From an uncultured Pelagibacteraceae bacterium (lineage in GTDB: Bacteria > Pseudomonadota > Alphaproteobacteria > Pelagibacterales > Pelagibacteraceae): a DNA stretch of 64,000 nucleotides. Below the pieces are notes generated by a model that did no database searches, was not told the origin of the DNA, and was given only the letters and a program-made list of their open reading frames with translations. Positions 7,985-13,011 of the stretch are shown here, in pieces. The position numbers were made by a program, and so were the translations under genes. Within the stretch, counting starts at the first letter, position 1. Each line of letters opens with the position of its first letter. Location: positions 1 through 64,000 of the forward strand of contig CACNSD010000006.1 in NCBI GenBank assembly GCA_902623075.1. The letters are read 5' to 3'.

Positions 7985-8539
7985 TTATTTTTTCTCTGAA
8001 GCACCCTCTGACTTTTCTACTTTAGGAGCTTCTTCTTTAGTAGCCTCTGCTGCTGGTGCTGCGTCTACCTTAGGAGCTTCTCCAGCTGGAGCTACTTCTT
8101 CTTTTGGAGCTTCTGCTACTGGGGCTACATTTTCCTCTGTAACCGTTTCTGGTTTTACATCAATATCAATACCAATTTTTTTTCTGATTTTTTCCGCAAT
8201 CCTTGCTGATTTACCTGTTCTGTCTCTTAAATAATATAGTTTAGCTCTTCTTACTTTACCAGATCTGATGACTTTGATTGAGTCAATTAATGTTCCAAAT
8301 AAAGGAAAGGTTCTCTCAACACCTTCACCAAAAGAGATTTTTCTAACAGTAAAAGATGAATTTAAATCTCTACTCTTTTTTGCAATACAAACCCCTTCAA
8401 AATACTGAATTCTTTCTTTTTTACCCTCAGTAATTCTCACACCAACTTTAACAACATCTCCAGGATAAAATTCAGGAATTTTTTTCTCTGAAAGTATTTT
8501 CTTAACGTTATGCTGATTTATTTCTTCAATTGTTTTCAT
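7985..8539 (-). CDS. rplS: 50S ribosomal protein L19 with acidic Ala/Pro/Glu/Lys tail
   Basis: Ribosomal protein L19, from MKTIEEINQ through the core [20 protein letters not shown] and [10 protein letters not shown] near residue 120. A TTG 15 nt upstream of the chosen ATG is also open but the ATG matches the family N-terminus. The core is normal, but about 55 residues follow that are made almost only of A, P, E, V and K (repeats of the APKEE and APAGEAPK type), so the protein is roughly 184 residues against ~115-130 in most bacteria. The tail resembles that of RpsP encoded nearby. L19 sits at the 30S-50S interface; a role of the tail is unknown. Confidence 0.94.
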
Positions 8540-8555
8540 GTTAGTGTTTATCAAA

Positions 8556-9242
8556 TTAATTCTTCTTATATTTTTCCCATAAATCTGGTCTTCGGTCGCG
8601 TGTTATAGCCTCAGATTGAGATAAACGCCAGTGTTTAATTTTATTATGATCCCCTGATAATAGTACGTCTGGTACGGCTTTTTCCTCCCAAACTTGAGGT
8701 TTTGTATATTGAGGGTACTCTAGAAGACCATTTTCAAAGGTTTCGTCTAGTTTAGAGTTTTCATTTCCTAATACGCCTGGCAGTAATCTTAAAATGCTAT
8801 CTATTACTACATATGCTGCCGACTCTCCGCCTGACAGAACATAATCTCCAATACTAATCTCCTCAATTTTTCTTGTTGAAAGTATTCTCTCATCTACACC
8901 TTCAAAATGACCACAAATTATTGACAATGATTTTTCATTAGCTAGCTCTTTAGCTAAATTTTGATCGAATTTTTTTCCTTTTGGTGACAAGTATAAGACT
9001 CTCTCATTCTCATTTTTATTTTCGTCTAAAGACTTTGCAAGAACATCTGCTTTTAACAACATCCCAGAACCACCTCCATAAGGTGTGTCATCTACTGTTT
9101 TATGTTTGTCATCAGCTGCATCTCTTATGTTTACAACTTTTAATTTCCATAAATTATTTGATAAAGCTTTTCCATAAAGTCCTTTAGATAAAGGACCAGG
9201 AAAAACTTCTGGATAAAGTGTAAACACTTGAGCTTGCCACAT
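8556..9242 (-). CDS. trmD: tRNA (guanine37-N1)-methyltransferase TrmD
   Basis: A 228-residue SPOUT-class methyltransferase modifying G37 of tRNAs read with a 3' G, using S-adenosylmethionine, which prevents frameshifting. Visible signatures are the N-terminal [13 protein letters not shown], the [14 protein letters not shown] loop near residue 50, the trefoil-knot cofactor segment [12 protein letters not shown] near 108 and [13 protein letters not shown] near 130, and the C-terminal TRDRRPDLW. It lies between rpsP and rplS as in many bacteria, but the rimM gene normally found just upstream is missing. Confidence 0.96.
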
Positions 9243-9256
9243 AAATAATCTTTAAA

Positions 9257-9736
9257 TTATTTTTTTTCCTCTGCTGGAGCTGCTTCTGCTGGCGCTGCTT
9301 CTGCTTTTGGAGCTTCTTCCTTAGGAGCTGCTTCTGCTTTTGGAGCTTCTTCCTTAGGAGCTGCTTCTGCTGGAGCTGCTTCTGCTGGAGCTGCTTCTGC
9401 TTTTGGAGCTTCTTTATTGTCCTCTTCTTTTTTATTTCTCTCTTTTTTTGGTACTGCTTTATTTGGATTATTTCCGTTAGCAGGCATGGGCATTAATTCG
9501 TTCTCACCTAAAATTCTTGCTACTCTGGTTGTTGGTTGTGCTCCTTGACCAAGCCAATATTTAATTCTCTCAGCTTCTAGGCCCACTCTTTCTTTTTTCT
9601 CTTTTGGTAATAGAGGGTTAAAGAAACCAACCTTTTCTATAAATCTTCCATCTCTTGCAAAACGACTGTCGGCAACAACAACCTTATAAACAGGACGTTT
9701 TTTTGTTCCACCTCTTGATAATCTTAATTTTAACAT
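9257..9736 (-). CDS. rpsP: 30S ribosomal protein S16 with long Ala/Pro/Glu/Lys repeat tail
   Basis: Ribosomal protein S16: the N-terminal ~80 residues ([46 protein letters not shown]) are canonical. Then come about 75 residues of charged low-complexity sequence, first [13 protein letters not shown] and then tandem copies of EAAPAEAAP and [11 protein letters not shown]. The total of 159 residues is nearly double the common ~80. The tail is encoded by a tandem DNA repeat (separate entry). S16 is an early 30S assembly protein. The gene lies 14 nt after ffh and 14 nt before trmD. Confidence 0.95.
9271..9415 (-). repeat. tandem coding repeat in the 3' end of rpsP
   Basis: About 145 bp of imperfect tandem repeats built from GGAGCTGCTTCTGC and CTTTTGGAGCTTCTTCC blocks (plus-strand view). 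A 33-bp compound unit occurs twice almost exactly, flanked by shorter 15-bp Ala-Pro-Ala-Glu units. It encodes the Ala/Pro/Glu/Lys tail of S16. It is conspicuously G/C-rich for this A/T-rich window. Such repeats expand and contract by slippage, so tail length probably differs among strains. It lacks the unique spacers of a CRISPR array. Confidence 0.85.
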
Positions 9737-9750
9737 TTCTTCTCCTTTTT

Positions 9751-11109
9751 TTACTTTAATTGGTTAAATAGCTCTGGTGGTATACCTTTATCAGACATAC
9801 CTTTCAGATTTCCTTTAGACATCTTTTTCATCATTTCAGACATCATCTTAAATTGCTTAAGCAATTTATTGATAGTGGCTGGATCTGTGCCAGAGCCATT
9901 AGCAATTCTTTTTTTTCTAGAACCATCTATTATTTTTGGATTCTCTCTCTCCTTTTTTGTCATTGATAAAATAATAGCTTCATTTTTTGAAATTATACTC
10001 TCATCAATTCCTGCTGAATCCATTTGAGATTTAATTTTAGAAACACCTGGCATAAAAGACATAATTCCCTCAATACCGCCCATTTTTTTCATTTGTCTTA
10101 ATTGAGATAAATAATCTTCCATGGAGAATTGACCTTTTTTTAAATTTTCTTCTGCTTTTTTGAGATTTTCTTCTCCTAAATCTTGTGCCGCCTTTTCTAC
10201 AAGAGATACAATATCTCCCATACCAAGTATTCTGTTAGCAATTCTATCTGGATGGAATACTTCAAGATTATCTATCTTTTCTCCTATACCTAAAAATTTG
10301 ATTGGAACGTTTGAAATATATTTCATACTAACGGCGGCTCCACCTCTTGCATCACCATCAGCTCTAGTTAGAATAATCCCAGATAAATTAACTGTATTTT
10401 TAAACTCTTTTGCTACTGAAGCAGCAACTTGACCTGTTAGAGAGTCTGCAACTAAGAAGGTTTCTGTTGGGTTTATGACAGCCTCAATTTGCTTAATCTC
10501 GCTCATCATTTGTAGGTCGATTTGAGTTCTACCAGCAGTATCAAATAAAATTATTTCAGCTCCATTTAAATTAGCAGCACTTATTGCCCTTCTACAAATA
10601 TCAGTGGGTTGCTGACCTTCTATGATAGGTAAAGTTAAAATATTATTCTGTTCTCCTAAAAATCTAAGTTGTTCTTGTGCAGCTGGTCTGTAAATATCTA
10701 AACTGACCATCATTACTTTTTTCTTTTTATTATTTTCTAAAAATTTTGCTAATTTTGCTGTTGTTGTTGTTTTACCAGAACCTTGTAATCCAACTAACAT
10801 CATTGGAACAGGCGGTACTGCGTTTAGGTTTACATCATTATTTGTTGCACCTAGTAAGTCTACAAGCTCATCATAAACAATTTTGACGACCATATCCCCA
10901 GGGGAGGTAGACCTTATAATCTCTTGGCCTAACGCTTTTGGCTTAACTTTTTCAATAAAATCTTTTGCAACATCTAAAGAAACGTCGGCTTCAAGCAAGG
11001 CTTGCCTAATGCCTCTTAAACCTTCGTCTACTTGAGCTTCATCAAGTGAAGGTGCTTTTTTCAGAGAAGAAAAAATTTCTTCAAATTTATTTGTTAAATT
11101 TTCAAACAT
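9751..11109 (-). CDS. ffh: signal recognition particle protein Ffh
   Basis: The SRP GTPase of about 452 residues, binding signal peptides and 4.5S RNA for co-translational insertion of membrane proteins. In order: N domain, G1 GLQGSGKTT near 105, DIYRPAA, DTAGRTQ, the G4/G5 region [10 protein letters not shown], and a methionine-rich M domain ending in [14 protein letters not shown]. The start is placed at [13 protein letters not shown] (11109) since the open frame upstream, 26 more codons, runs through the structured leader and has no family similarity. It heads the minus-strand ffh-rpsP-trmD-rplS set and is preceded by a three-hairpin leader likely to regulate it. Confidence 0.96.
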
Positions 11110-11216
11110 ATTTATTACGCATAGCAAAAACGCACTAGTGGGCGAACCCTCGCTGACTAGTGTCGATCTCTTTGTTCCCAAAGACACCGCAAAGTTAATG
11201 TTTTTGCGGAAACGGC
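11110..11216 (-). ncRNA. structured 5' leader of ffh (three hairpins, probable cis-regulatory RNA)
   Basis: On the minus strand three perfect hairpins follow each other without gaps. A: CCGCAAA/TTTGCGG at 11187-11209. B: TGTC..GACA closing TCTTTG-GGAA-CAAAGA at 11161-11186, with a GGAA tetraloop. C: CACTAGT/ACTAGTG enclosing GCGA/TCGC at 11133-11162. An 8-nt segment GCAAAAAC in the 5' arm of A (11200-11207) is also exactly complementary to GTTTTTGC at 11124-11131, just ahead of the ffh start, so A and this long-range stem exclude each other. From memory, a comparative study of Pelagibacter noncoding regions reported a cis-regulatory candidate ahead of the SRP protein gene; this is most likely that motif. 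The ligand or sensor is unknown. Confidence 0.75.
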
Positions 11217-11269
11217 ATCAACCTATAATAGAGGTTCAAAAAGTCAATAAATAAGTTAAACATCAATAT

Positions 11270-12094
11270 ATGGATATTAAAGCATTTAAAATGGACGGTT
11301 TAGGTAATGATTTTGTCATCATAGATAATAGACAAACAATTACAAATTTGACGAAAGAGCAAATAGTTAAGATTTGTGACAGAAAATTTATTGGTTGTGA
11401 CCAATTAATATTAATTAAAAAAAATGATGAATCAGATGCTTCGCTAGAATTTTATAATTCAGATGGAGGAATCTCTGGTGCGTGTGGAAATGGTACACGA
11501 TGTATTGCTGATTTAATAGGCAAAGAAAATAACAAAAAGGAAATTGTCCTAACAACTTTATCTGGCAAATTAAAATCAAATATTGTTGGAAAAAAAATAG
11601 TTTCTACAGAAATAGGTATTGCAAAAACAAAATGGGATGAGATTCCTTTATCTAAAGAATTAAATACTAATAATTTAGGAATTAAAATTTTTGACAAAAA
11701 TAATAACGAATTTTCTGGTGGGACTGCTGTAAATGTTGGGAACCCACATATAATTTTTTTTGTTGATAATAATGAAAATTTTGAAATTAAAAAAATTGGA
11801 CCAGAAATTGAAAATCATTCTCTATTCCCAGAAAAATGTAATGTTACTTTAGCAACTGTTGTTAATAAAGCATTGGTAAAAGTTAGAGTGTGGGAGAGAG
11901 GAGCTGGACTTACCAAAGCTTGTGGAACAGCAGCTTGTGCAACAGCTTTTGCTGCAAAACAAAATAGACTGGTAAATGATAAAGTTGATATTGAATTTTC
12001 TACAGGTAGATTGAATATTTCAATTGATGAAAATAATAGTATTCATATGAAAGGACCAGTTTCAGATATTGAAGAGATAAGTTTTAAAATTTAA
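11270..12094 (+). CDS. dapF: diaminopimelate epimerase DapF
   Basis: A 274-residue cofactor-independent epimerase turning LL- into meso-diaminopimelate for lysine and peptidoglycan. The N-terminal motif KMDGLGNDFVIID is present, with the two catalytic cysteines in SGACGNGTRC (near 75) and in TKACGTAACA (near 218). The length is normal. It is transcribed divergently from ffh, the intervening 160 bp being shared by the ffh leader and both promoters. Its stop overlaps the ftsY start by one base (TAATG), so the two are translationally coupled. In many alphaproteobacteria a methylthiotransferase gene lies between these two; it is absent here. Confidence 0.96.
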   Translation: MDIKAFKMDGLGNDFVIIDNRQTITNLTKEQIVKICDRKFIGCDQLILIKKNDESDASLEFYNSDGGISGACGNGTRCIADLIGKENNKKEIVLTTLSGKLKSNIVGKKIVSTEIGIAKTKWDEIPLSKELNTNNLGIKIFDKNNNEFSGGTAVNVGNPHIIFFVDNNENFEIKKIGPEIENHSLFPEKCNVTLATVVNKALVKVRVWERGAGLTKACGTAACATAFAAKQNRLVNDKVDIEFSTGRLNISIDENNSIHMKGPVSDIEEISFKI

Positions 12095-13011
12095 TGGGAA
12101 TTTTTGAAAAATTTAAATCAGGTTTTAAAAAAAGTGCCTCAGCTTTTACAACGGGTTTAAGAGATATAGTTGTAAAAAAAGAGATAGATGACAAAACATT
12201 AGACAAAATTGAAGATTACTTAATTCAATCAGATGTTGGTATTGTTTCGGCTTCAGAAATAAGAGAAATAATTTCTCAAACAAAAATTGATCCTAATAAA
12301 AATTTAACCGACGAAATAAATAATATTTTAAAAAATTATATTATTTCAATAATGAAGCCATTGGAAAATATTGAATTCTTCAAAAAAAAAGAAAAATTAA
12401 ATGCAACATTAATTTCAGGTGTCAACGGTGTTGGAAAAACAACCACTATTGGAAAAATAAGTAAAATATTAAAGGGTAATGGAAACAAAGTAATGCTTGC
12501 TGCATCAGATACTTTTAGAGCGGCAGCTATAGAACAACTTGAAAATTGGGCAAACAAAGTTGATGTTCAAATTACAAAATCATCTCAAGGCTCTGATCCT
12601 GCATCAGTCGCTTACAAGGCTATTGAAGAAGCATTAAACAATAATTTTAATCAGGTTTTAATAGATACTGCTGGAAGATTACAAAACAAAAAAAATTTGA
12701 TGGAGGAATATAAAAAAATTGCGAACGTAACTAAAAAAATTGATCCTGACGCCCCACATGATGTTATTTTAGTTTTAGATGCAACTTCGGGTCAAAATGT
12801 AATAAATCAAGTTGAAGAATTTAATAAAATTATTCCAATAACTGGTCTTATAATGACAAAATTAGATGGCACAGCAAAAGGAGGTATTCTTTTAGCTGTT
12901 GCTAAAAAATATAAGCTACCAATTATTGCTCTTGGATTAGGTGAAAAAGAAGACGATTTACAAATTTTTGAAGCTGAAAAATTTGCAGAGGCTTTCACTC
13001 AAATTAGTTAA
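12094..13011 (+). CDS. ftsY: SRP receptor FtsY (short form)
   Basis: A 305-residue SRP-receptor GTPase that docks Ffh-ribosome complexes at the membrane. It begins almost directly with the NG domain (FEKFKSGFKKSASAFTTGL), so the acidic A domain of enterobacterial FtsY is missing, as in many alphaproteobacteria. GTPase motifs are GVNGVGKTT near 108, DTFRAAA near 138, DTAGR near 192, and TKLDGTAKGG near 250. It overlaps dapF by one base, and its 3' end overlaps a convergent gene by 8 nt. Both SRP GTPases (ffh and ftsY) therefore lie within 1 kb of each other on opposite strands. Confidence 0.96.
   Translation: MGIFEKFKSGFKKSASAFTTGLRDIVVKKEIDDKTLDKIEDYLIQSDVGIVSASEIREIISQTKIDPNKNLTDEINNILKNYIISIMKPLENIEFFKKKEKLNATLISGVNGVGKTTTIGKISKILKGNGNKVMLAASDTFRAAAIEQLENWANKVDVQITKSSQGSDPASVAYKAIEEALNNNFNQVLIDTAGRLQNKKNLMEEYKKIANVTKKIDPDAPHDVILVLDATSGQNVINQVEEFNKIIPITGLIMTKLDGTAKGGILLAVAKKYKLPIIALGLGEKEDDLQIFEAEKFAEAFTQIS

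Follow-up and report, generated by a model that had tools for sequence, protein, structure and literature searches.

A conserved leader of the ffh-rpsP-trmD-rplS operon in Pelagibacteraceae and other Alphaproteobacteria, a candidate bS16-responsive RNA

Which gene does the structured RNA leader in front of ffh in SAR11 bacteria answer to? We addressed this question starting from a stretch of 64,000 nucleotides of an uncultured Pelagibacteraceae bacterium (assembly GCA_902623075.1, contig CACNSD010000006.1, positions 1 to 64,000; hereafter the window), in which a leader of about 110 nt lies on the minus strand between the divergent dapF gene (11270, plus strand) and ffh (ATG at 11109-11107). 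The leader belongs to the Rfam family RF01793 "ffh", as it scores 60 bits at 11125-11177 against a gathering score of 35 and carries the bulged hairpin with a conserved internal loop upstream of ffh; it is the sole Rfam match at gathering score in the window. In the excerpts consulted, the 2009 report of this motif by Meyer et al. (PMC2704228) describes one bulged hairpin that possibly regulates ffh, and names no ligand. The statement in the first-pass annotation that a cis element upstream of ffh had already been reported in Pelagibacter was therefore correct. The terms rpsP, S16, trmD and rplS do not occur in the main text of that report, and we found no paper linking RF01793 to S16, nor any later ligand assignment after 2009. 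The element is thus known, and its assignment to the ribosomal protein bS16, which we propose here, is new.

The operon that follows the leader in the window has the gene order ffh-rpsP-trmD-rplS, and its features, with the putative promoter elements, are the following.

9751-11109, minus strand: ffh, with the SRP54 GTPase, signal-peptide-binding (M) and N domains (Pfam)
9257-9736, minus strand: rpsP, encoding bS16, the proposed ligand (PF00886, E 2.3e-27)
8556-9242, minus strand: trmD, directly after rpsP (PF01746)
7985-8554, minus strand: rplS, encoding bL19 (PF01245)
11242-11247, minus strand: TTGACT, a candidate -35 element; TTGAC stands in the aligned SAR11 upstream rows read (every fourth row)
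about 11224-11230: -10-like ATTATA/TATTAT, at a spacing from TTGACT that is short for sigma-70

A scan with the sigma-70 consensus gave no match. The gene rimM is absent from the window operon, where the interval between rpsP and trmD (9242-9257) leaves no room for it, and in this the operon differs from most of the named alphaproteobacterial loci searched. A second protein of the same GTPase type is encoded at 12094-13011 of the window, with GTPase and N domains and without an M domain, and is FtsY-like. A 6-codon open reading frame (ATGCGTAATAAATATGTTTGA) at 11122-11102 on the minus strand overlaps the start of ffh; in some similar leaders an ATG or GTG occupies the position of the ATGCGTAATAAATATGTTTGA frame, possibly by chance. 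The predicted S16 and L19 proteins (9257-9736 and 7985-8554) both have C-terminal tails rich in Ala, Pro and Glu.

Within the leader we distinguished three hairpins and two sets of competing pairings.

11187-11209, minus strand: hairpin P1, CCGCAAA-(9)-TTTGCGG, a perfect stem (11209-11203 with 11193-11187), outside the Rfam model
11169-11184, minus strand: hairpin P2, TCTTTG-GGAA-CAAAGA, a perfect stem (11184-11179 with 11174-11169; loop 11178-11175)
11133-11162, minus strand: hairpin P3, with a 2x2 internal loop CA/CC, the RF01793 core
11186-11189, minus strand: CGGU, 5' strand of the basal helix of P2, overlapping the 3' arm of P1 and pairing with 11164-11167
11164-11167, minus strand: AUCG, 3' strand of the basal helix of P2
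11200-11207, minus strand: GCAAAAAC, 5' strand of an alternative stem in the minimum-energy fold of the window leader, with GTTTTTGC (11124-11131) as its partner
11118-11132, minus strand: tail between P3 and the ffh start, pairing with the leader 5' end in the predicted closed state

The first-pass annotation had described three perfect hairpins, which holds for P1 and P2; P3 consists of seven pairs (11162-11156 with 11139-11133), the CA/CC loop, and four further pairs (11153-11150 with 11145-11142). The conservation of these hairpins was assessed in 132 distinct SAR11 leaders, obtained from 153 loci with an RF01793 match after removing duplicates and rows with N. RF01793 was found in 251 of the 297 genomes of the window's family, and in 106 of the 385 genomes of its class at E <= 0.001, 81 of these over the cut-off. 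Over all three hairpins, 99.7% of the alignment cells are paired and 11 pairs are changed on both sides. The covariation score is 0.209 versus 0.100 in shuffled alignments, and none of 500 shuffles scored as high, the same being true of the paired cells and of the doubly changed pairs; the number of pair types is no higher than in shuffles (144 of 500 as high). P1 is paired in 99.0% of the cells, with double changes between G-C and A-U and between C-G and G-C, P2 in 99.9%, with all six of its pairs changed on both sides, and P3 in 100%. As the Rfam model spans only the 3' side of P2, and that as unpaired, P1 and the 5' side of P2 lie outside it, and the selection of leaders by the model cannot create their pairing. 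Since all three hairpins are kept and covary, as the first-pass annotation had proposed checking, the published one-hairpin model is incomplete and misses two hairpins. RF01793 was not found in 46 of the 297 SAR11 genomes; an ffh match over the cut-off is lacking in all 20 of these that were listed (in two a piece of ffh starts at a contig end, five have FtsY-like matches only, six have only matches below 25 bits, and seven have nothing), and we read the lack of RF01793 in these genomes as assembly gaps rather than absence.

The 109-nt leader has a predicted folding energy of -36.2 kcal/mol (z = -4.0), a stability that no sequence among 200 shuffles attains. The predicted minimum is an alternative, closed state, in which the 8-bp stem of GCAAAAAC and its partner closes a junction holding P3 and a lengthened P2, and P1 is opened; the predicted probability of the closing pair tested is 0.994, versus 0.001 for the P1 pair tested. 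A fold restricted to P1, P2 and P3 reaches -27.7 kcal/mol, and the best fold in which P1 is enforced, computed on a slightly longer stretch, -31.7 kcal/mol. In minimum-energy folds of growing prefixes, P1 is there up to 90 nt and is lost at 95 nt, when the tail is out. The two folds lie within 3 kcal/mol of each other in 70 of the 132 SAR11 leaders, and the window prefers the closed one by 4.5 kcal/mol.

A two-state switch built on the 8-bp stem had been postulated in the first-pass annotation. The complementarity of 11207-11200 with 11131-11124 is exact and belongs to the predicted minimum, but the stem fails the covariance check suggested in that annotation and is not conserved in register: 63.1% of its cells are paired in the 132 leaders versus 61.8% in shuffled alignments, a value hardly above that of the shuffles (5 of 500 of which reach it), its covariation score was matched by 42 of 500 shuffles, and the leaders nearest to that of the window (L061, L063, L064, L065, L070 and L073) have one to three mismatches in it. 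What survives is the general idea of mutually exclusive pairings, with different partners. One such pairing is the basal helix CGGU/AUCG, which excludes P1 and, taken together with P2, has 99.8% of its cells paired in the 132 SAR11 leaders. Its first pair is C-G in 108 leaders, U-A in 21, U-G in one and none in two, and the three linked positions read G-C-G in 108, A-U-A in 21, G-U-U in two and G-U-G in one. Apart from a few partial changes, parsimony on the tree counts only two clean ones from G-C-G to A-U-A; two leaders are unpaired. Under a home-made phylogenetic null resembling that of R-scape, the key C-G pair of the basal helix comes fifth (E = 0.6, not significant) and the linked P1 pair ninth (E = 5.4); for the basal helix together with P2, the number of pair types is no higher than in shuffles (191 of 500 as high), and that of doubly changed pairs is not clearly higher (50 of 500). 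The basal-helix covariation rests on few events and is supportive, not proof. By eye, these strands make up a single long helix (CGGUCCC/GGGAUCG) in several other alphaproteobacteria, and in copies from the PS1 clade described below CGGU is replaced by CAAU or CAGU, and AUCG by AUUG.

The other pairing is a looser one between the 5' end and the tail. In a register-free duplex test on SAR11 leaders, the native 5' part with its tail was more stable than with swapped tails, with p values of 0.00005, 0.00015 and 0.005 for 27, 17 and 8 representatives (kinship among the representatives inflates these values), and p values of 0.11 to 0.68 in the controls. The signal comes mostly from the 5' arm and loop of P1, the flank alone giving p values of 0.03 to 0.39, and the advantage is gone for the most distant partners, against which the native duplex was more stable in 49.5% of cases. 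In 25 families outside SAR11 the same pairing gave p = 0.49, with the 5' segment taken by a fixed offset, which could miss a pairing. The sequence comparisons thus support this looser pairing within SAR11 only. Sequestration of the Shine-Dalgarno region in a fixed register was also considered and rejected (61.5% paired versus 64.3% in shuffles). The stretch after P3 (11118-11132 in the window) looks conserved by eye, roughly as C R U U U N N G Y U U G G, and is so in other alphaproteobacteria even where ffh starts much further on.

Could the leader respond to Ffh itself? P2 of the window is capped by GGAA, and the first-pass annotation had suggested that excess Ffh binds this hairpin as a mimic of the tip of SRP RNA. 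The idea gains from the position of the SAR11 leaders used, whose next gene is ffh, and from the remark in the part of PMC2704228 consulted that RNA-binding proteins often regulate themselves. The cap is indeed present in the window; however, GGAA occurs in two of the 132 SAR11 leaders (a GNRA loop of some kind in 97), and it is not the tetraloop of this genome's own SRP RNA. The latter lies elsewhere (L001 1501-1597, minus strand, G000:C2); in it UAAC takes the place of the model's GGAA, with CAG and AGCA kept in the adjacent loops. It is divergent, and its 37.9 bits fall slightly short of the Rfam cut-off of 40. The likeness of the leader to the bacterial small SRP RNA (RF00169) is confined to the GGAA-capped hairpin of the window sequence; SRP RNA models gave no match to 11000-11300 at E <= 5, the AGCA loop side shown by the genome's own SRP RNA is absent from the window leader, and the GGAA loop is not conserved. 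Together with the retention of the leader in a clade where Ffh was not detected (14 genomes), to which we now turn, these observations make the mimicry idea very probably wrong, and we regard autoregulation by Ffh through the GGAA hairpin as highly improbable.

The clade in question is PS1/OCS116, represented by 18 genomes, six of them at least 90% complete (L206-L209, L219-L232 and L235-L239). In none of the 18 did we find Ffh, another GTPase of the SRP54 type, or an SRP RNA above cut-off, two sub-cutoff matches at one place in G679 (17.2 and 20.5 bits) being set aside. Having no SRP-type GTPase, these genomes show no FtsY either: where contig breaks have removed ffh from SAR11 genomes, the same Ffh model still detects an FtsY-like protein, so named by its likeness to that at 12094-13011 of the window, so FtsY would have shown. 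Neither ffh nor ftsY was found near dapF in the three PS1 loci read (L206, L236 and L207). Judged from these genome sequences, the whole SRP pathway appears to have been lost in this marine alphaproteobacterial clade; we found no paper naming both "PS1 clade" and "signal recognition particle". RF01793 is nevertheless present in 14 of the 18 genomes, directly before rpsP and 26-33 nt from its ATG in all 14, and is carried by all five named PS1 loci. In the remaining four genomes the leader is probably missing through an assembly gap, because no S16 gene was found there either. One PS1 S16 (L206) has an Ala/Pro/Glu-rich tail like that in the window; of four PS1 loci inspected, three (L207-L209) have the end of their contig within the S16 tail or shortly after it. 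Conceivably, the PS1 copy is a relic and Ffh acts elsewhere through another part of the leader, as ffh does stand between leader and rpsP in the non-PS1 loci where both were read. However, the PS1 leaders have diverged in sequence and have kept their pairs, as seen by eye in CGGUUC/GAAUCG, CGGUC/GAUCG, CAAUCC/GGAUUG and CAGUCC/GGAUUG, so that we give the relic reading very little credence.

The linkage of the leader to rpsP was followed in 80 of the 106 leader-bearing genomes of the class, a sample that contains no PS1 genome. In 74 of the 80, rpsP lies 1.4-5.1 kb downstream on the same strand; in two it is on another contig, and in four it was not found. Viewed from rpsP, ffh is upstream in 74 of the 80 named rpsP loci, the others being five PS1 loci and one whose contig begins too close, so that in those 74 the leader might control ffh alone. 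Rfam scanning found RF01793 in 23 of 27 distinct named rpsP loci and not in L250, L258, L263 and L303; in the last three our own descriptor finds a P3-like hairpin, which we left out of the argument. Two Aquabacter loci (L257 and L312) keep the leader, and in them predicted opposite-strand open reading frames follow rpsP-rimM, with neither trmD nor rplS found within 5 kb. In addition to the window operon, rimM was not detected in the PS1 locus L239. Since ffh, rimM, trmD and rplS are each absent from the operon in some leader-bearing lineage, rpsP is the gene left, and it is probably the gene to which the element answers. The choice of ligand is thus made by elimination, under the assumption that the ligand is encoded in the operon; excerpts of PMC7247131 state that in all known cases the ligand of a ribosomal-protein leader is encoded by a gene under the leader's control. 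The element shares with such leaders a covarying structure that is conserved at the 5' end of a ribosomal-protein operon, with rpsP downstream in the lineages read. Some known ribosomal-protein leaders resemble the rRNA site of their ligand. When the genome's own 16S rRNA was searched with one simple descriptor, there was one CA/CC-loop match versus 0.66 expected, which is at chance level.

There are two further readings to be weighed. The leader might sense something other than bS16, namely bL19, TrmD or a small molecule, or might be an intrinsic attenuator formed by P3 and a U-rich tail: rplS leaders are known elsewhere, U-rich sequence follows P3 in many of the alphaproteobacteria read (by eye), and the two states are near-isoenergetic in the 70 of 132 leaders mentioned above. 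This is rendered doubtful by the Aquabacter loci, which keep the leader in operons where trmD and rplS were not found; as for an attenuator, a terminator scan of the window found none, under rules that disallow the internal loop of P3. Alternatively, a trans-acting small RNA could be transcribed or cut from the leader, given that Rfam types RF01793 as an sRNA and that, in the parts of the sources consulted, it is said to have been detected in metatranscriptomic small-RNA studies (PMC2704228) and was seen in Bartonella as "ffH leader RNA" (PMC7717549). Yet short leader transcripts also come from attenuation, and the element consistently heads the operon, both before rpsP in every PS1 copy and in the class genomes with rpsP downstream, and we consider a trans-acting role improbable.

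We therefore return to bS16. On comparative grounds, we somewhat favor the reading that the leader of the ffh-rpsP-trmD-rplS operon acts in autoregulation by a ribosomal protein, with bS16 as the likeliest ligand. A predicted S16 leader of Flavobacteria (PMC7247131, in part) is similar by description, in being a putative bS16-responsive leader of an rpsP operon, but belongs to another phylum and lies directly before rpsP, whereas the leader described here is usually upstream of ffh. Compared with RF01793 as described in the excerpts of PMC2704228, with which the window leader shares P3 and the place before ffh, the present element has two more hairpins, an overlapping basal helix, and a linkage to rpsP that outlives the loss of ffh. 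A 2024 review (PMC10931766), in the part consulted, states that there is no information on the control of expression of the trmD operon (rpsP-rimM-trmD-rplS).

In the mechanism that we envisage, free bS16 would bind P3 and the lengthened P2 and hold the closed state, which in SAR11 would tie the 5' end of the leader to the nucleotides that lie 9-22 nt upstream of the ffh start. The closed state would lower translation (or, elsewhere, read-through) of the whole operon, and the output of Ffh would depend on how bS16 and rRNA are balanced rather than on Ffh itself. More tentatively, across much of the Alphaproteobacteria the "ffh" RNA may be a bS16-sensing conformational switch that couples SRP output to 30S assembly, and a marine clade may have discarded the SRP pathway and kept the switch on rpsP. 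The PS1 clade amounts to a natural deletion of ffh, and thanks to it the question can be put directly to a binding test with a single named protein. If the proposal is true, the protein-targeting machinery would be tied to ribosome assembly in cells that are among the most abundant in the sea.
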